DNA of 18,702 nt from Candidatus Sumerlaeota bacterium (GTDB lineage Bacteria > Sumerlaeota > Sumerlaeia > JADFCT01): assembly GCA_026398575.1 (NCBI GenBank), contig JAPLSP010000199.1, positions 1 through 18,702 on the forward strand. The letters are read 5' to 3'. Both the position numbers and the translations under genes were made by a program. The notes beneath the pieces were generated by a model. It was not told the origin of the DNA and made no database searches. It saw only the letters and a program-made list of their open reading frames with translations. Positions 7,368 through 14,488 of the stretch are shown here, piece by piece. Every line of letters starts with the position of its first letter. The stretch's first letter is position 1.

Positions 7368-8909
7368 TTACGAAAATAGCTCCATCTGCCGTACGGTAGA
7401 AGATGAAAGACCGGAGGCGGCAAGCACCTCAGAGGGCAATGGCAACTGTTCCAATGAGCGCGGCTCGACTTTTATCGCTCCCGACCCGTAGGATTTTCCT
7501 ACCAGCGACAGATTAGCGATCGTTTTGGGATCGCTTAGGATACTCCATAGTTTTTCAATAAATTCCGGAGTGTCAGTTTTGGGATACACGCAAAGTAAGC
7601 ATGTCAGGGGCACAACGCCTGCAAGATTTCGAATAAAGCGCGCATCGCGCCTTCCCAGATAGGCAAACAATATCGGCGGGACTCGACGCGATTCCATCTT
7701 GTACCAAGGCTTTCGCGTTGAAATGAGAGTTTTTCGAGATACTCCCATTTCTTCTCCATGCCGCAAATATTCCTGAACGCTCGCTGGAAGGGTCTCCATA
7801 CCGCAACCATTGACCGACAAAAGCAGCGTCGGCCTTCCATGCGCATCAAGCCGCTCCAAATCGTCTTTCGTGAGCCGTTTTCCATCTACGTCACGAGTTC
7901 GCCCAATTGCCAGAATAAGATATTGCTCCGGAATTCCCAATTCCACGGCGCGCTTTCGGGTAAAGAAGAAGAAATCATTGTCTCCCGATGCGATGCCTCG
8001 CATAACCGTCGCAAAATCGCCTAAGCGGGCAATGCCCGTGGGATTTGTTTGGGGGGGTCTTGAAAAGCCACTGCGTAGTCCTTCCGTTAAATCGCGTGTT
8101 GCTATCGTGAGATCACCATCTGCGCTCTGATCGGGCAAGTCCGAATCAATCCATTGTTTGAGCGAAGGCGAATTGGATTTCAGACAACGCGCCCAAAGAA
8201 AAGTGTCTTTCGGCGCCCTGTTGCCAATAAGAAAAAGGATTGCATTGGTATCCACTTCCGGAAAAGGAGCGGCTTCAGCGGCATAGGTTATCACTGCGTC
8301 CAGGCAGAATTTTGAGCAAATCCAATCCCATAAGGCCGGCGCATAGACGCCCTCGCATATATCTGCGGAGACAATGAATGCCAGACGTCCATTCTCTTCC
8401 AGTGCCTCCAAACATCGCAAAAGAAAATAGAGTTGCAGCCCAGCCCTCCCATCAAATACTCGGCCGGTTAGCCTCCTGGAGAAATTTTTCAACTGCGCTT
8501 TGGTTTGTTCCGGCAGACGATGGTGCCGAATATAAGGAGGATTAGCCACAATGGAAGGATAGCGGCGGAGCAATGGCGACAAAATAAAATCCCCCACGCG
8601 CACATGCTCCAGTTCGGCGCCGGTGAGGCCATTGCTCCGGCATTGATTCAATGCGTCAGGATCGAGCTCGCATCCAAGCAGCTCAATCCGGCGATGATGC
8701 GCTTGGGCATATTTACGAGCGGCAAGCAAAAACACGCCCGCGCCCACCGCTGGATCAAAAAGCGCATTCGCGCCTGCGCCGAGCGAATAAGAAACCATCG
8801 CCTCAGCCACCCAATTCGGCGTCCAGAACTGGCCTTTTTTCCGAAGCGCCTCGCGCGCGGCGCCGGAACGGGGAATTTTGGATTTTTGCTGCCTCGATGC
8901 CATACTCAT
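7368..8909 (-). CDS. Type II N6-adenine DNA methyltransferase (gamma class, M.TaqI/Eco57I-like)
   Basis: The modification enzyme of a restriction-modification pair; it transfers methyl from S-adenosylmethionine to adenine N6. Motif X is KKGQFWTPNWVA (25-36), motif I DPAVGAGVFL (52-61), the acidic SAM-binding end CELDPDAL (80-87), GDFI (106-109) and the catalytic motif IV NPPY (123-126): the gamma-class order, with the target-recognition region in the C-terminal half. The block RKPWYKMESRRVPPILFAY in that half is typical of such enzymes and recurs as a broken copy at 10740-10818. I take ATG 8909, preceded by GGTGA; TTG at 8912 or ATG at 8903 remain possible. It follows the endonuclease gene by about 20 bases and ends one base before recN. 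The 513-residue length is normal. Confidence 0.9.
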   Translation of the reverse strand: MSMASRQQKSKIPRSGAAREALRKKGQFWTPNWVAEAMVSYSLGAGANALFDPAVGAGVFLLAARKYAQAHHRRIELLGCELDPDALNQCRSNGLTGAELEHVRVGDFILSPLLRRYPSIVANPPYIRHHRLPEQTKAQLKNFSRRLTGRVFDGRAGLQLYFLLRCLEALEENGRLAFIVSADICEGVYAPALWDWICSKFCLDAVITYAAEAAPFPEVDTNAILFLIGNRAPKDTFLWARCLKSNSPSLKQWIDSDLPDQSADGDLTIATRDLTEGLRSGFSRPPQTNPTGIARLGDFATVMRGIASGDNDFFFFTRKRAVELGIPEQYLILAIGRTRDVDGKRLTKDDLERLDAHGRPTLLLSVNGCGMETLPASVQEYLRHGEEMGVSRKTLISTRKPWYKMESRRVPPILFAYLGRRDARFIRNLAGVVPLTCLLCVYPKTDTPEFIEKLWSILSDPKTIANLSLVGKSYGSGAIKVEPRSLEQLPLPSEVLAASGLSSSTVRQMELFS

Positions 8910-8929
8910 CAAATATTCACCAGATTTTT

Positions 8930-9877
8930 CTAGGTCCTTGCCGCGAACAGAATCCCAAGTGCTGTATTGGATAGCCGCAATTTTCCGCCGCTAAATTTGA
9001 CATAAGGAAGAATATGGCCATTCTTATCCGCGATGCAATCCGCAACCAATTTGGGCTCTTCATCCGCTGTCCCAAGCTCGTAGGCATAATGATGATAAAC
9101 CTTATAGATTGCTTTCTCTGTCGTGGCGCCGCCTGGCGCTTGAAAGACTTGACGCGTCGCTTCGATCTTACCGGAGCGAATAAGCGCCTCGAAATCGTCA
9201 AAGGCCAACCCAAAGGCCAAGTCATAAAACACATGCCAAATGTGAATGGGCAGGTGATGTTCTTCTTGCCATGTTCGCAGCGGCACGCGGTCTTCCTCTT
9301 TGATAATTACAGTAGGCAAGACAGCGCTCTTTTTAAACCCCAGCTGTCCGCCCAACCGTTTTTGAGGCTTCATCACAGATTGGAAATCAGGCATCTGCCT
9401 TGCGCGCCAAAGACTGTTTTCGCATTCAACCGCAATAATGGCTTTTGCGAGCAGATTCTGCATGAGGGGATGATTTTCTAGCGTGAAGGGCAATTCACCC
9501 AGACCATTCAACTGCGCAACAATCGAATCCACGCTTGCTTTATCAGCAGCCTGGAATATCAGAAGATCAGGCCTCTTTATCTTGCCCAAGCCTGCCTTTT
9601 CAAGCCGCTCAAAGTATAACTCAAACGCTCTGACATCGTCGTCGGGCGCCGTTCCACTTGGCCCGTAGGGAAGCGCATAAAACTTCCCCGTTTCATTCAC
9701 AGCCTGCACCAGTCGCTCCTCGCTCCACACACCTTGGGACCAACGCATAAGAAAGTCGCTGCCACGCAAACGGCGGGGATTCAGGATGAAGTTGGCCCAT
9801 ACATCCCAAGGACAGCCTCGCAAGGCAAATTCTATTTCTTCAGCAGAAACGCTAAGATTTGCTTCGAAAGGATGCAT
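8930..9877 (-). CDS. Type II restriction endonuclease, AccI-like
   Basis: Partner of the adjacent methyltransferase; expected to cut unmethylated host-foreign DNA at the site the methyltransferase protects. The 315-residue sequence resembles what I recall of the AccI family (GT^MKAC cutters): NPRRLRGSDFLMRWSQGVWS (33-52), ALPYGPSGTAPDDDVRA (68-84), KRPDLLIF (101-108), IIAVECENSLWRARQMPDF (147-165) and HIWHVFYDLAFG (212-223). A plausible metal site is D104 with E151 and E153, a PD...ExE variant of PD-(D/E)xK. Gamma N6-adenine methyltransferases are the expected partners of AccI-type enzymes, which supports the call; the actual recognition site cannot be read from sequence alone. The upstream DNA has no recognisable control-protein gene. 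Confidence 0.82.
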   Translation of the reverse strand: MHPFEANLSVSAEEIEFALRGCPWDVWANFILNPRRLRGSDFLMRWSQGVWSEERLVQAVNETGKFYALPYGPSGTAPDDDVRAFELYFERLEKAGLGKIKRPDLLIFQAADKASVDSIVAQLNGLGELPFTLENHPLMQNLLAKAIIAVECENSLWRARQMPDFQSVMKPQKRLGGQLGFKKSAVLPTVIIKEEDRVPLRTWQEEHHLPIHIWHVFYDLAFGLAFDDFEALIRSGKIEATRQVFQAPGGATTEKAIYKVYHHYAYELGTADEEPKLVADCIADKNGHILPYVKFSGGKLRLSNTALGILFAART

Positions 9878-9931: not shown

Positions 9932-10007
9932 TTTTGCAAGCAACGAACAGTATTTCAAACCTGCGGCGGCTGAATTTCAATGGCTTTTTCAGAAAAGCAG
10001 GTTGCGG
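9932..10007 (+). other. Decayed copy of the region upstream of the radical SAM gene
   Basis: Segments 9945-9961 (GAACAG, TATTT, CAAACC) and 9980-10007 (ATGGC then GAAAAGCAGGTTGCGG) match 13080-13098 and 13102-13127 in order and orientation. The 16-mer GAAAAGCAGGTTGCGG is identical at 9992-10007 and 13112-13127. The rest has small insertions and deletions. It belongs with the gene-start fragment at 10693, which continues the match after an insertion holding the gene at 10113. Confidence 0.5.
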
Positions 10008-10112
10008 CAGCAAAGGCCTGATCCTATTCTCCTTCAAGTGATGGTTGGCAGTTTGATGAAATTGAGGAAGCAATGTTTCTAGTCCTGAATATGCCTCTTA
10101 TTGGTGAAAGAC

Positions 10113-10646
10113 ATGCATAAAAAGAAATTTCTGATACCCAATCCGTATATGTGTGTTGTGGAGGTTTCAAGCGCCACTCCCAGCGCAATATTGAAATATG
10201 CGCTTACTGATAAGCAGGCGCTTCTTGGCATCATACGATATAATCACCTCTTGGACACGTTTTTAGGCATGCCTTGCTACTCCCTGCAAAATAATCCGCG
10301 CTTCAGTTTGCCGACCATTGGCGTTGTGGAAACGGATGAGATTTATATCGGTGTGGGCAAGAAGGGAAATCACTATGTAATCCCTGTCCAAGCCAAAGGA
10401 TATCTGGGCCATCTTGATTTCGCACATACTGAGCGGGACATAGCCATTTGCGCGCATAAATACGGCTCGCTAATCTGCTGTCCAGTGGGGGCGCAGCTAA
10501 TCAAAGAAGGCATCATCGCATTGTTCGAGTTTGCGACGAATGATGGTCATGTGGGCCTCTCTTGCGAAAAGCATTACAAGCTGATTCAGCCGGATTTGGT
10601 CACCGACGTTGATCTGGAATCATATCCCAGGAAACCAAGCGGCTAA
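10113..10646 (+). CDS. Hypothetical protein with PD-(D/E)xK-like core
   Basis: From ATG 10113 (GGTGAAAGAC just upstream) the product is 177 residues; a TTG at 10101 would add four. The core reads VETDEIYIGV, then HYVIPVQAKG after about ten residues, then a helix (ERDIAICAHKYG) and CCPVGAQLIKEGIIALFEF. An acidic pair on a strand followed by Q-x-K on the next strand fits a PD-(D/E)xK nuclease-fold variant with Gln in place of the second acid. I recall related proteins reading E(T/L)DE(V/I)Y(I/V)GVDKxGxHYV(F/L)PVQAKG in many bacteria, often longer at the N-terminus, so this one may be 5'-truncated. It sits between the restriction operon and the ParA/AlbA_2 operon, inside a duplicated flank. Nuclease activity is inference. 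Confidence 0.6.
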   Translation: MHKKKFLIPNPYMCVVEVSSATPSAILKYALTDKQALLGIIRYNHLLDTFLGMPCYSLQNNPRFSLPTIGVVETDEIYIGVGKKGNHYVIPVQAKGYLGHLDFAHTERDIAICAHKYGSLICCPVGAQLIKEGIIALFEFATNDGHVGLSCEKHYKLIQPDLVTDVDLESYPRKPSG

Positions 10647-10692: not shown

Positions 10693-10755
10693 ATGCGAAA
10701 ATCAGTCATCATCAGACGTAAGCTCAATTCTCTTGCCCGGCGCCTTCCCCAATAG
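10693..10755 (+). pseudogene. Truncated start of a radical SAM gene homologue
   Basis: The 20-codon frame encodes MRKSVIIRRKLNSLARRL, then Pro-Gln and a stop. The intact gene at 13202 begins MKRSVIIRRKLNSLARRL. The nucleotides differ mainly at synonymous third positions (CGT/CGC, TCT/TCC, CGG/CGC) plus a swapped second and third codon, so this piece comes from a diverged functional homologue, not from a recent copy of the neighbour. Similarity stops at GCGCCTTCCC, where methyltransferase sequence takes over. Confidence 0.8.
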
Positions 10756-10888: not shown

Positions 10889-11737
10889 CTATGAAATGAC
10901 TACACCAGTCCATTGGGCGATTTCATCTGAAAGCCTCTCAAACAAGAATGCTTCATCAGATGAAAACGGCTCATTCAACATGACTTCACTGTAAAGCCCA
11001 GGAATTCTGGCTGCCCATATTGCATCACCTTTGGTTGGTTTGTTTAGGCGTTCCGAGTGCTGCATGACAATATATCCTATGGGCTGAATGGGCTTTGTCG
11101 GAACGGAGAGATCGCTCGCAGGATTTTTTTGCAATCGTTCCGCCCATTCCTTATTCCAACGGCCAAGAGTTGGGCCTAAGTTTTTTAGGCCTTGTAGCGA
11201 AAAAAGGTCAAGCGCCAATGGCATAACGATATAATTAGCGGATATCAACGCCGCCCGATTAATAGCGCCTAAATTGGGGCCAAGATCTACAAGAACCAAA
11301 TCAGCCTCTGCGTTAGAAGCGGCAGTTTGCATTATACGCCAAAATGCGGATGTGACTCGAAAAGCACGTTCATCGCCATCACTGCATTTAGGCCATGCTT
11401 CAGATAGCTGATCTTCAAATTTCGACAACGCAAGATCGCCGACGACTAATGATAGATAGTCAGTGATTGGCTCTAAATGAGGCGCTTGAATATCCCCTAA
11501 TCCGAGGATTAATGGTTGAAGACAGCCGTAAATCGTCTGTTCATGGGCTTCGTCAGGCCATAATTCCTCCAGGCGGTCTTCCGCCAAAAATGCTGCCGTT
11601 AAATTTGCCTGGGGATCGAGATCAACTGCAACAGTTCTCACGCCTTTATCCGCAAACATCCAGGCAATATGATAAACAAGCGAAGTATTTCCAACTCCTC
11701 CCACGGCACTAAAAAATGCGATTATTGGGGCGGTCAT
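10889..11737 (-). CDS. ParA/MinD-like ATPase with degenerate Walker A
   Basis: A 282-residue SIMIBI-class protein of the ParA/Soj type, a fold that normally binds ATP as a dimer and moves or positions DNA or protein cargo. The N-terminus is FFSAVGGVGNTSLVYHIAW; the canonical motif is KGGVGKT, so the signature lysine is V12 and the phosphate-binding lysine is N17. The remaining core is intact: VAVDLDPQANLTAAFL (36-51, A' motif) and ADLVLVDLGPNLGAINRAAL (Walker B region). A MPLALDLFSLQGLKNLG segment (about 196-212) is typical of these proteins. It overlaps the stop of the AlbA_2 gene by four bases (ATGA), so the two are translationally coupled. No ParB gene is near, so ordinary plasmid partition is unlikely. 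ATP hydrolysis is probably lost or much reduced unless homologues show compensating residues. Confidence 0.88.
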   Translation of the reverse strand: MTAPIIAFFSAVGGVGNTSLVYHIAWMFADKGVRTVAVDLDPQANLTAAFLAEDRLEELWPDEAHEQTIYGCLQPLILGLGDIQAPHLEPITDYLSLVVGDLALSKFEDQLSEAWPKCSDGDERAFRVTSAFWRIMQTAASNAEADLVLVDLGPNLGAINRAALISANYIVMPLALDLFSLQGLKNLGPTLGRWNKEWAERLQKNPASDLSVPTKPIQPIGYIVMQHSERLNKPTKGDAIWAARIPGLYSEVMLNEPFSSDEAFLFERLSDEIAQWTGVVIS

Positions 11738-12942
11738 GGTTTTCTCCTGAGAATTGCCAATACGGCGTTTTCTTCAACAACAAACTCAATCTCCGGATTG
11801 CCATTCTTTGCCATTTCTTTTCTGGCCGTGTGAATGCCCCATCCAAATCTCTGCACATACCCAAGGTTTTTCATGGCTTCCGCGAGGTTGGGATTGCGGT
11901 AGTCCACCGCTCCAGGCTTTCCAAAATTATCGCGATGGACCCGCCCAAAAGGTCCTCCGGGATTTTCAATTTCGATGCGGTCGCTAAACCAAGTTATTCG
12001 AACGGGCGCGTATGTTCCTTCATAGGTTCGATGCAACACCGCGTTCCTGGCGATTTGCTGAAGCGCAGCCAAAGGGTAATCCGGCGATTTGATTTCCTGT
12101 GGCGTTGATAAAAAACTGGTCGCCACTGAAATATTGGCCGAAAGTATCTCATCAAGGATTCTTAGAGACTCCGGCAATGGATTAGAGATTTCTTTCTGGT
12201 CCTTAATCGGATCGCCTACTTCCGTTCCTTCGACTCTTAGAAATTGAATATAGGCGCCTGGCACAAAAACCGTGGGGATTTTGCCGCACACAATAAGTCC
12301 AAGATTAGTTGGCGCCGGTGGTTCCGCAGTTGTCGTAAATCGGAGCGAGACCAGCTGCTGTTCTGCTGATCGCTGGTTTTGCAGGAGAACATCTGGATTA
12401 ACCGCGCAAGGCAAATAGGTCCGGCTGAATAAATCAAGATCAAGATCGCTCAAGGCAGCAGAATCATTGGGCCTGATATCAAAAGGCAAATCTTTGCCGC
12501 GCCGCTTTTCGCTCAGCCTTAATTCCTCTTCCATTGTGGCTGTTGCGCGTCTGGGACCCACTCTAATCCATACACGGCCATTGAATCTCACAGGAGGAAA
12601 CAAGGAAGGCTGGACTATAACAACAGCCATCTCACATCCATCAATGCAACGTTTTTCAACACTCATTACTGGAAAAGGAAGTATATTGCCATCAGAGCGT
12701 ATATGTGAAAGATTGAGAAGCAGCTCATCCGTTATTGGAAGTCCAGCGCAAGACCCATCATCATGAACCCCGATAAAAACAATCCCGGGCTTTTGATGGT
12801 TGGGCATATCATTGGCAAATGCGCAAATTGCCTCACGAATCTTGTTAGAATCAGAAAAAGATGATTTTCGCTCCACTCGATCTGACTCTAAATCATGTAT
12901 GAGCTGACGAAGTTCCTGATCTGTGAAGTGACTCGTCATCAT
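11734..12942 (-). CDS. AlbA_2 (Schlafen)-HATPase domain protein
   Basis: The 402-residue protein has an N-terminal AlbA_2/Schlafen-type domain (about 15-130): ERKSSFSDSNKIREAICAFAND, then GIVFIGVHDDGSCAGL and RVWIRVGPRRATATMEEE. In the family this domain is linked to nucleic-acid binding or cleavage. The C-terminal part is a HATPase_c_4-type domain: QQIARNAVLHRTYEGTYAP, DRIEIENPGGPFGRV and NPNLAEAMKNLGYVQRFGWGI. Two adjacent ATGs at 12942 and 12939 compete; AAAAGG lies upstream. It is the first gene of a two-gene operon with the ParA-like ATPase, overlapping by ATGA. Such proteins are often annotated as transcriptional regulators or ATP-dependent helicases by domain similarity; direct function is not known. 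Position beside a restriction system suggests defence. Confidence 0.87.
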   Translation of the reverse strand: MMTSHFTDQELRQLIHDLESDRVERKSSFSDSNKIREAICAFANDMPNHQKPGIVFIGVHDDGSCAGLPITDELLLNLSHIRSDGNILPFPVMSVEKRCIDGCEMAVVIVQPSLFPPVRFNGRVWIRVGPRRATATMEEELRLSEKRRGKDLPFDIRPNDSAALSDLDLDLFSRTYLPCAVNPDVLLQNQRSAEQQLVSLRFTTTAEPPAPTNLGLIVCGKIPTVFVPGAYIQFLRVEGTEVGDPIKDQKEISNPLPESLRILDEILSANISVATSFLSTPQEIKSPDYPLAALQQIARNAVLHRTYEGTYAPVRITWFSDRIEIENPGGPFGRVHRDNFGKPGAVDYRNPNLAEAMKNLGYVQRFGWGIHTARKEMAKNGNPEIEFVVEENAVLAILRRKP

Positions 12943-13166
12943 TGGTGGCCTTTTGAAAACGAAAATTTGCTCTTAAAAGCGGTGCTGATTTTCATTAGAT
13001 GGTCAATTGCTGTTCTTTTGAATCATTCTCTGCCCTGATTTCATGCGTTCCGGCGGGCGGATGCAACGGGATTTTGTATGAACAGGATTTATCAAACCGT
13101 ATGGCGCATCGGAAAAGCAGGTTGCGGAGGGCAGGCTTTGGGCATAATCTGCGAATGGCCGCAAGC

Positions 13167-13196
13167 AAAAAAAGGTTCGTCGCGACGGCTTTTTTT
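13167..13196. other. A-tract/T-tract hairpin just upstream of the radical SAM gene
   Basis: Seven A, then GGTT, the palindrome CGTCGCGACG (13178-13187), GC, and seven T. The sequence folds into about 14 pairs with one bulge. It looks like a bidirectional terminator, but it lies six bases from the start codon of the gene at 13202 and downstream of no recognised plus-strand gene, so it could instead be an attenuator or a relic of a lost gene. The rest of 12943-13201 shows nothing recognisable beyond the sequence matched at 9932-10007. Confidence 0.4.
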
Positions 13197-13201
13197 GAAT
13201 A

Positions 13202-14488
13202 ATGAAACGATCAGTCATCATCAGACGCAAGCTCAATTCCCTTGCCCGCCGCCTGGGCTGGACGTGGGCGCCGGCGCGGCCGGTGCAGGCTTGGATTTCG
13301 CCGACGACGGTCTGCAACCTGAACTGCCGCACGTGCGGGCGGTTTATCAGTCATGCGAAATTTCAGCACATGTCGGCGGAGACCTATCAGATCGTGCGGC
13401 GCGAGATCATGCCGGCGTTGGGGAGCGTGATCCTGACGGGCGTTGGCGAGCCGCTGCTGGCGCCGCTGTTGCCGGAGATGATCGCCGACTGCCGCCGCTA
13501 TGATATTCGTCCCGAGTTGACCACCAACGGGATGATCTGGAACGAAGAGATTTTCGGAGAGATCGCGGCGCTGGGCGGACGCGTGGCGTTGTCGGTGGAT
13601 GGGGCGGACAAGGAGACGATGGAATACGTCCGCCGCGGGCTGAATTATGAAACTTTTCTGAAGACGGCAGAGGGTTTGGCAAGGCTGAAACGCGGAGCTC
13701 GGGAATCGGGATTCGGGGCTAGGGATTCGGGGCTTGGGGCTTGGGGCTCGGGACTCGGAACTCGGAACTCGGAACTCGGAACTCGGAACTCTACGTTCGA
13801 GTTTTATTTGAACGTTGTGCTACTGCGGATGAACCTCGGCCAACTCGGCGCGATTGTGAATCAGGCTGCGCAATGGGGCGTGGACTGCATATATTTCAGC
13901 AACTTCGGCGCGACGGATAGCCCGGACAAGGATTTCATTCAACAATCGCTTGAAACGCGGCCCGATATCGTCAATCCTGTGCTCGACAAGGTTTGCGCGC
14001 AATGCGAGGCGAAAGGAATTCGTTTTTCGCGCCCGCAATTTCTAAGCGGCGCCGAGGGCGAAACCAAGCGAGCGCAAGGCGCAGTTCCGAGTTCCGAGTT
14101 CCGAGTTCCGAGTTCAAAGGACCAGGTTCCGAGTTCCGAGTTCCGAGTTCCGAGTTCAAAGGACCAGGTTCCGAGTGCCGAGTTCCGAGTTCCAAGTCCC
14201 GAGTCACGAACCCCGAACCACGAATCCCAAATCCCAAATCCCGAACCCAGAACCCCGAACCCCGGGCGCCTGCTACAGTGCGCGCTGCCTTGGTGGGCGA
14301 TTTATATCGAGGCCGACGGATCGGTTTTTCCCTGTTGCCAATGGTGGCCGCCGATTGCCAATCTGCGCGACGCGCCATTCGCGCGCATCTGGAATAGCGC
14401 GGCCTATCGGGAAATCCGGCGCACGGTCAATCGTACGCCGCTGCCGGGCGCTTGCCGGCGATGCATTTTGGGGGAAAGACGATTTTGA
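13202..14488 (+). CDS. Radical SAM/SPASM protein with in-frame repeat insertions
   Basis: A 428-residue radical SAM enzyme. C38-NLN-C42-RT-C45 is the canonical CxxxCxxC that binds the SAM-cleaving 4Fe-4S cluster; TGVGEPLL (79-86) stands in for the GGE motif, and LTTNG (106-110) and LSVDGADKETMEYVRRG (130-146) are typical of the SPASM group. The C-terminus has a SPASM-like cysteine set: C360, C378, C379, C418 and C421, with ADGSVFPCCQW. Such proteins modify peptides, sugars or other small substrates; the substrate cannot be named. Two blocks are foreign: residues 165-198 (Gly/Ser/Arg-rich) and 291-355 (repeats of SSEFRVP, then Pro/Asn/Glu-rich). Both are translated 7-bp repeats and both lie between conserved elements. 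The ATG has only a weak upstream Shine-Dalgarno. A broken homologous start lies at 10693. Confidence 0.88.
   Translation: MKRSVIIRRKLNSLARRLGWTWAPARPVQAWISPTTVCNLNCRTCGRFISHAKFQHMSAETYQIVRREIMPALGSVILTGVGEPLLAPLLPEMIADCRRYDIRPELTTNGMIWNEEIFGEIAALGGRVALSVDGADKETMEYVRRGLNYETFLKTAEGLARLKRGARESGFGARDSGLGAWGSGLGTRNSELGTRNSTFEFYLNVVLLRMNLGQLGAIVNQAAQWGVDCIYFSNFGATDSPDKDFIQQSLETRPDIVNPVLDKVCAQCEAKGIRFSRPQFLSGAEGETKRAQGAVPSSEFRVPSSKDQVPSSEFRVPSSKDQVPSAEFRVPSPESRTPNHESQIPNPEPRTPNPGRLLQCALPWWAIYIEADGSVFPCCQWWPPIANLRDAPFARIWNSAAYREIRRTVNRTPLPGACRRCILGERRF
13694..13795. repeat. 7-bp repeat array in radical SAM gene, copy 1
   Basis: Heptamers of the GGGATTC/GGAACTC type repeat, passing from GGGATTCG through GGGGCTTG to four perfect GGAACTC units, in frame with the gene. 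Read on the opposite strand the order is GAGTTCC units, then GGGG/CCCC-rich variants, the same progression as the second array. Confidence 0.85.
14081..14267. repeat. 7-bp repeat array in radical SAM gene, copy 2, inverted
   Basis: GTTCCGA heptamers repeat in three blocks, two of them separated by a spacer reading AAAGGACCAG, then shade into CCCGAGT, CCCGAAC and CCCAAAT variants. Three heptamers (21 bp) encode seven residues, so the protein shows a 7-residue period. The array is largely the reverse complement of the one at 13694-13795. Confidence 0.85.

Follow-up and report, generated by a model that had tools for sequence, protein, structure and literature searches.

Which role is played by a gene for an AlbA_2-HATPase protein that runs directly into the gene of a ParA-like ATPase? 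The question is raised by an 18,702-nucleotide contig of a Candidatus Sumerlaeota bacterium (JAPLSP010000199.1, assembly GCA_026398575.1), the whole of which is referred to here as the window. The two genes lie on the minus strand and share ATGA as stop and start, and both open reading frames (ORFs) were recovered where an earlier reading of the letters alone had put them. This sequence-only reading proposed a nucleic-acid effector or sensor that is paired with a switch ATPase, lacks ParB and sits in a defence island. The pair is a real and conserved dyad of a (predicted) Schlafen RNase and a ParA. We are inclined, with due reserve, to regard it as a horizontally spread module in which the RNase serves as a conditional defence effector with ParA as its partner.

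Domain make-up of the AlbA_2 protein

The first protein of the dyad consists of a predicted RNase domain of the Schlafen/SAMD9 type joined to an ATP-binding domain of the histidine-kinase type. In Pfam, its gene matches AlbA_2 (PF04326, E 5.9e-15) and HATPase_c_4 (PF13749, E 5.6e-17), and the second gene matches AAA_31/ParA (PF13614, E 3.1e-23). The AlphaFold model of the AlbA_2 protein (pLDDT 90, pTM 0.68) displays the AlbA_2 fold of the Schlafen/AlbA_2 RNases, with fold matches to 3LMM, SLFN11/SLFN12, the SAMD9 tRNase domain and kinase CA domains. The two catalytic glutamates of these RNases are present as well. E19 and E24 align with the ES-x-x-x-E motif of SLFN11/SLFN12; the former is kept in 118 of the 119 homologues (the remaining one has a gap) and the latter in all 119. 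In SLFN11, we take E209 to be a catalytic residue. The same residue is named in the title of structure entry 7ZEP. The window protein is 65-75% identical to 11 aligned homologues and has no deviation at sites that are otherwise conserved among 119 relatives, which themselves deviate at 1.0 sites on average. The nucleic-acid effector domain of the sequence-only reading is thus borne out by the fold matches and the aligned glutamates. Judged by sequence and model, the domain would have RNase activity, probably with tRNA as its target.

Two features of related families are missing. The HATPase_c_4 match ends at residue 397 of 402 and no helix-turn-helix match was found in Pfam at E 0.1, leaving no winged helix after the GHKL domain. 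The protein therefore differs from the COG2865-type regulators with a C-terminal winged helix-turn-helix (wHTH). A Pfam scan of the window proteins gave no HEPN match either, which sets the pair apart from HEPN-ParA dyads.

Linkage to ParA and the state of ParA in the window

Protein searches yielded at least 8000 candidates for each of the two proteins. Among the best 120 listed for each, and with the window's own entries excluded, the best relatives show 61-70% identity for ParA and 64-75% for AlbA_2. Gene order was examined in 80 genome loci that were chosen by AlbA_2 only; they are the best 80 of at least 561 confirmed relatives and lean towards close ones. Flanking genes were called as longest ORFs without a gene finder, and in some loci (cluster 11) spurious antisense frames displaced the real gene. 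ParA follows directly downstream on the same strand in 74 of the 80 loci, a few of which are cut by contig ends, and the overlap is exactly 4 bp in 52 of the 61 pairs with resolvable ends. Chance coupling is ruled out by these counts.

The linkage is as tight when viewed from ParA. In the 49 whole genomes behind the non-cyanobacterial loci (chosen for AlbA_2), ParA was detected in 43 (E up to 1e-40), and 44 of its 45 matches adjoin AlbA_2. The only ParA homologue living apart is found on a contig piece (G018:C44). A seemingly lone ParA in G222 was dismissed, as an AlbA_2 gene split over two ORFs lies directly upstream. In a phylum sample of 345 genomes, which overlaps partly with the 49, ParA occurs in nine genomes and stands beside AlbA_2 in all nine; AlbA_2 itself (E up to 1e-60) occurs in ten, two of them without ParA (G110 and G073). 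The expectation of a coupled two-gene module is therefore upheld, and the converse finding, homologues that mostly occur apart, was looked for and did not emerge.

The two partners also appear to share their history. Their distances correlate in a mirror-tree comparison (r 0.72, against at most 0.25 in 1000 permutations), and the AlbA_2 tree of 71 rows mixes the phyla, with 33 changes of phylum label where 15 would be the minimum. From these two results, the module seems to spread horizontally with both partners travelling together. Seven viral contigs carry an AlbA_2 relative, one of which (L081) bears a pair.

Some unusual arrangements were seen among the loci. In L088 (1730-2591), two overlapping ORFs encode the AlbA_2 and HATPase parts but not the stretch between these, and the ParA behind them is full-length. 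Genome G025 holds a second, diverged AlbA_2-ParA pair with a third AlbA_2-HATPase-like protein nearby (L091 3873-6043 and 11238-12629). The ParA-less AlbA_2 genes in L089, L090 and L051 adjoin protein-kinase genes (by Pfam in L051, by eye in the other two).

The window copy of ParA is degenerate. A working switch ATPase had been assumed for it, an assumption that failed because the Walker A lysine is gone, as the sequence-only reading overlooked. The deviant Walker A motif of ParA/Soj ATPases, KGGxGK[T/S], is replaced by VGGVGNT, with loss of both the signature lysine and the P-loop lysine. In addition, the protein measures 282 aa against 320-347 aa in the relatives listed. About 50 residues near the C-terminus have been deleted with the reading frame kept; in the model of an intact relative's ParA, the missing stretch holds a strand (270-274) and a helix (278-287). 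Compared with 119 relatives, the window ParA departs from them at 24 sites that are conserved elsewhere, through 10 substitutions and 14 gap columns, whereas the others deviate at 0.6 on average and at 8 at most (P0002, the closest relative of the window ParA). By its sequence, the protein has very probably lost ATP binding. Since ParA deviates at 24 conserved sites and AlbA_2 at none, the alignments place the two under different constraint in the window. Probably, the window RNase either functions with no ParA, like the RNases of the few loci that lack one, or belongs to a module that begins to decay.

Walker A changes are not confined to the window and recur in ParA relatives that are well conserved in other respects. 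KGGxGKT[S/T] is carried by 107 of the 119 ParA relatives and the other 12 depart from it, some of them being of ordinary length. The P-loop lysine is lost in the protein relatives P0099 and P0019 and in the genome loci L006 and L054. Of the cells in ParA columns 12-18, 19 are substituted, and none is in 11 further motif columns, in a comparison whose columns were picked after inspection and in which assembly errors are possible.

Genomic context and rival explanations

Outside the cyanobacteria, the pair keeps company with defence genes. Seven of the 20 matches to DUF1156, the methylase of Hma, in the 49 genomes fall within 10 kb of AlbA_2, where 0.10 would be expected (binomial P 7e-12). Embedding in Hma operons is observed directly in some genomes: AlbA_2, ParA and the DUF1156 methylase are chained by 4-bp overlaps in L014 and L048. 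Upstream of the chain comes a gene of the HmaA-like helicase cluster, which is the immediate neighbour in L014 and is separated from it by a single 707-aa ORF in L048. HmaC-type ATPases are found in L013 and L048, which brings together the helicase, methylase and ATPase that make up Hma. In L034, AlbA_2 stands alone between BrxC and PglX. Among the 111 next-door genes of the 61 non-cyanobacterial loci, matches to 160 PADLOC families were counted (1e-15); Hma, SoFic, type III methylase, PDC-S02, PD-T4-6 and helicases of the BREX/DISARM/Zorya type are among the most frequent. The surroundings of uvrA in 20 of the same genomes, a baseline that favours housekeeping areas, give 10 families in 111 genes, with one ATPase model (mad3) providing 5 of 14 protein-family matches. 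The 63 genes at least 5 kb away from the pair, some of which lie in the same Hma/BREX islands, give matches to 27 families. These densities count families, not genes, over about 48,757 (near), 22,459 (at least 5 kb) and 33,655 (uvrA) residues, and the near set omits one 2105-aa gene of L032 for its size (112 reduced to 111).

Several observations weigh against a defence effector. The candidate third acidic residue, present in the window as D61/D62, varies among relatives: D61 is kept in 86 and D62 in 93 of the 119 homologues, mostly with Asn as the substitute. The sequence matches to SLFN11/SLFN12 are weak. AlbA_2 lacks ParA in six of the 80 loci and in two of the ten genomes, and the ParA of the window itself is degenerate. 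In 11 of the 19 cyanobacterial genomes, the pair lies downstream of uvrA and within 5 kb of it, a stable chromosomal place that is unusual for defence; uvrA is single-copy there, save one extra fragment in G054. Outside the cyanobacteria, housekeeping genes are also numerous among the neighbours, and for three of the seven near DUF1156 matches the open frame is short (54, 62 and 228 aa) and may be a remnant. As genes at least 5 kb away match defence models too, closeness to the pair as such has not been shown to matter. Fic is not significantly enriched (2 of 102 matches within 10 kb, 0.5 expected, P 0.10), and one N6_Mtase is found near AlbA_2 among the matches listed; a broad enrichment of Fic or N6 methylases was thus set aside. 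The defence context, for which proximity to defence genes was to be counted, accordingly holds outside the cyanobacteria and is not universal.

In the window, the neighbours are listed in Table 1. The adjacent restriction-modification operon of the sequence-only reading is confirmed as an Eco57I-type methylase with an AccI-type endonuclease. Its PD-(D/E)xK-like neighbour does match a type II endonuclease model; as the match is confined to positions 90-258 of 260, the N-terminal third is missing and the gene is probably a remnant. Two colinear direct repeats, of 45 bp and further out 16 bp, duplicate the promoter side and start of a radical SAM gene and bracket the pair together with the endonuclease remnant. 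These repeats suggest nested insertions, and the region may have been inserted or duplicated at the start of the radical SAM gene. The coding frame of the latter contains short 7/14-bp repeats in two mutually inverted arrays (13690-13790 and 14085-14270). The Hma set (helicase, DUF1156 methylase and ATPase in one operon) is not among the window proteins scanned.

Table 1. Features of the window (positions in nucleotides), followed by loci of related arrangements (in their own coordinates)
Feature	Position	Strand	Basis
AlbA_2/Schlafen-type RNase (predicted)-GHKL (HATPase_c_4) fusion, 402 aa	11734..12942	-	Pfam, alignment, AlphaFold model
AlbA_2 domain, residues 19-132	12547..12888	-	
Schlafen-type catalytic glutamates E19 and E24 (ESDRVE)	12871..12888	-	Homologue conservation; SLFN11/SLFN12 alignment
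Candidate third acidic residue, D61/D62	12757..12762	-	Homologue counts; aligned with GVDD of SLFN11
HATPase_c_4/histidine-kinase CA-like domain, residues 313-397	11752..12006	-	
ParA-family ATPase, degenerate copy, 282 aa	10889..11737	-	Pfam, alignments, conserved-site scoring
ParA Walker A region VGGVGNT; signature lysine K12 to V, P-loop lysine K17 to N	11684..11704	-	Alignments
Approximate junction of ParA deletion, about 50 residues missing, including the SL(I/M)PxxQxxxxPxFxLxxxDGxxGxH stretch	10940..10960	-	Alignments
Flanking ORFs of the pair	10101-10646 and 13202-14488	+	ORF reading
109-aa ORF near the AlbA_2 gene	13003-13332	-	ORF reading
N6/Eco57I-type methylase of restriction-modification operon	7368-8912	-	Pfam and PADLOC models
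AccI-type endonuclease of restriction-modification operon	8930-9877	-	Pfam and PADLOC models
Type II endonuclease, probable remnant (PD-(D/E)xK-like)	10101-10646	+	PDLC03404 positions 90-258 of 260, E 1.2e-52
45-bp direct repeat, left copy; duplicates 5' end of radical SAM gene	10701..10745	+	BLAST, 93% identity, E 1.4e-14
45-bp direct repeat, right copy; inside 5' end of radical SAM gene	13210..13254	+	BLAST
16-bp direct repeat, colinear with the 45-bp repeat, further out	9992-10007 and 13112-13127		100% identical
ParA-SIR2 pairs	L114 3492-5380; L118 3492-5347; L119 3468-5337; L120 3492-5355; L121 3420-5349; L125 3001-4919		
Cyanobacterial uvrA-linked loci	L001, L002, L003, L005-L008, L010-L012, L021		

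An effector that is held in reserve is not the only way to read such a dyad. It might be a constitutive toxin-antitoxin system that uses the AlbA_2 RNase as toxin and ParA as antitoxin, after the proposal that Anantharaman et al. made in 2013 for HEPN-ParA pairs, an explanation that we find unlikely. Sections of that paper (PMC3710099) do predict dyads of HEPN (MAE_18760) and ParA/Soj with ParA as the postulated antitoxin, and describe members of this HEPN family that are fused to Schlafen. Moreover, the ParA-less AlbA_2 gene in L036 is followed directly by a nucleotidyltransferase of PADLOC family PDC-M05A, the partner type of the MNT-HEPN modules treated there. However, a constitutive toxin that depends on ParA should not tolerate a missing or wrecked partner, and AlbA_2 tolerates both, in the ParA-less loci and genomes and in the window. 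With the one contig piece excepted, the member that is not found alone is ParA and not AlbA_2. The wrecked ParA gives rise to another suspicion, namely that the window copy is a decaying relic without present function. This is conceivable, if doubtful: the loss of the Walker A lysine and of the C-terminal stretch speaks for decay, as does the truncated endonuclease next door, but the AlbA_2 frame is open and free of deviations at conserved sites, and the deletion in ParA is in frame.

Those faultless conserved sites would equally suit a housekeeping regulator, be it a RecG-like/COG2865 transcriptional regulator or an accessory of DNA repair linked to uvrA. The neighbourhood of uvrA in cyanobacteria and the names given at source ('transcriptional regulator', 'ATP-dependent DNA helicase RecG') point the same way. 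Such a role is nevertheless quite unlikely, as the uvrA link was seen in cyanobacteria only (0 of 74 UvrA matches within 10 kb in 44 of the 49 other genomes, many of whose contigs are short), AlbA_2 occurs in just 10 of the 345 genomes of the phylum sample, AlbA_2 lies inside operons of Hma and BREX in some genomes, and the window protein has no winged helix match. A general link to uvrA or DNA repair was rejected on the same count. The fold of ParA and its source name 'chromosome partitioning protein' would finally fit a pair for plasmid or chromosome partition with a ParB-like partner, which is very improbable. The partner is a predicted RNase-GHKL protein and not ParB, and no ParB match was found in the eight window proteins scanned or in the first 25 of the 125 Pfam families of 111 neighbours (parS was not searched for). 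Plasmid matches, the sequence-only reading's own check for partition loci, are all below 60% identity, both for AlbA_2 (34 matches; 21.7-35.7% among the matches listed) and for ParA (28 matches; 33.7% at best among those listed). Relatives of the pair in annotated plasmid and phage collections are likewise all below 60% (at most 36% among the matches listed), and a distant DNA search for the pair in plasmids gave no match. Plasmid partition was rejected on these grounds.

As a conditional defence effector, the module would work as follows. The Schlafen/SAMD9-type RNase with its histidine-kinase-type ATP-binding domain would form the constant part, and a ParA of a distinct subfamily the second part, probably made by translational coupling at the overlapping stop and start. 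The RNase would be held off in healthy cells and released upon infection, with the nucleotide-driven dimerisation of ParA as one input to this release, so that ParA would act as a gate. It would then serve as a last-resort effector, be it on its own or as part of Hma/BREX-related operons. The loci that lack ParA, together with the window copy, offer natural experiments on the purpose of ParA.

Relation to SIR2-coupled ParA and to known systems

Relatives of this ParA are also coupled to a different type of enzyme. When the ParA of an intact relative was compared with plasmids, 28 records were obtained, 10 of which were opened, together with one for Salmonella out of the 21 that a second search, made with the Spirosoma ParA, yielded. 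In six of these 11 records, a distant ParA relative is followed by a SIR2-type gene that directly overlaps it by 4 to 17 bp (Table 1). The pairs are annotated in Spirosoma, Vibrio ponticus and Salmonella, and were read from ORFs in Burkholderia stagnalis, Photobacterium and Neorhizobium. A match to ThsA-type models was obtained for every one of the six SIR2 proteins; for the SIR2-coupled ParA, no specific PADLOC model was found in the three of six proteins scanned. No SIR2 neighbour was seen in the other five records (Vibrio campbellii, two Pantoea agglomerans, one Pantoea sp. and E. coli, the last of which was judged by eye), and two of six phage records that were opened (a P22-like phage and a prophage) have no annotated SIR2 beside ParA. 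In the P22-like phage SE1 (L116 3489-4562), a ParA of the wider family is located close to a CI-like repressor.

An alignment of 302 columns (E 1e-47) joins one SIR2-coupled ParA to the Schlafen-coupled family. The C-terminal stretch that is missing in the window is common to both groups and in part to the phage type. Tentatively, and with a good deal of doubt, a distinct ParA subfamily marked by SL(I/M)PxxQxxxxPxFxLxxxDGxxGxH might be an interchangeable gate for toxic effectors, with as partners the Schlafen-GHKL RNases on the chromosomes of many phyla, SIR2 proteins (probable NADases) on plasmids and the HEPN RNases of the 2013 prediction. Judging from the ParA-SIR2 pairs, killing enzymes that are unrelated to each other may be served by the same kind of switch. 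If this is true, abortive-infection effectors would have taken over the ATP switching of partition systems as their general trigger.

No model or paper found names the pair, which the sequence-only reading could not match to a named system either. In PADLOC 2.0.0, matches of the window AlbA_2 are confined to pAgo-type models (E 1.2e-10 at best), the window ParA matches only a 39-residue stretch of PDC-M28B, and no specific model names the two together. In the literature searched, no dyad of AlbA_2/Schlafen and ParA was recognised except for the HEPN-ParA prediction, and a preprint by Taboada et al. may cover the family. COG2865 or AlbA_2 is mentioned in other contexts in sections of PMC7641849 and PMC6299218. 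An operon that is conserved from archaea to cyanobacteria is thus unnamed in the defence library and the literature searched.

Among the closest known systems are the Schlafen RNase-minimal histidine kinase-wHTH proteins, which, according to PMC12839542, occur in at least 1017 taxa and back up BREX and BREX-related systems as effectors. They share with the present protein the Schlafen RNase, the kinase-type domain and the location in or beside BREX-related/Hma operons. In contrast, no wHTH was detected in the window protein, and the present system has ParA as its partner gene. The main text of that source contains none of the words ParA, Soj, MinD and SIMIBI. The HEPN-ParA/Soj dyads, as outlined in PMC3710099, are similar in that a predicted RNase forms a two-gene operon with a ParA/Soj ATPase, and a Schlafen domain is present in some members of the family. 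However, the effector is here an AlbA_2-GHKL protein without a HEPN match, and ParA is absent in some loci. Hma, which is defined in PMC8565338 and is related to Type-1 BREX, hosts the pair in some genomes, where it is embedded by 4-bp overlaps. The pair nevertheless falls outside the definition given in that source, and most sampled loci have no Hma.

ParA shares its fold with the Soj protein of ParABS, and the Walker A motif is present in most intact relatives. It differs in the C-terminal stretch that is shared with the SIR2-coupled plasmid relatives and in having an effector, not ParB, as partner. The closest structure of this ParA subfamily is 3PG5 (DIP2308) from Corynebacterium diphtheriae, while the best structural match of the AlbA_2 protein, 3LMM (DIP2311), comes from the same organism. 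Sequence identity is 16% to 3LMM and 23-28% to 3PG5, and the entry titles state no function. As the locus tags are three apart, DIP2311 and DIP2308 may represent a diverged pair. The catalytic glutamates and the core fold are finally shared with the animal Schlafen/SAMD9 RNases, from which the bacterial protein, a predicted RNase, differs by the kinase-type ATPase domain in its C-terminal half. If the proposed function is true, these animal antiviral RNases have a link to a module of bacteria that carries an ATP switch of its own.

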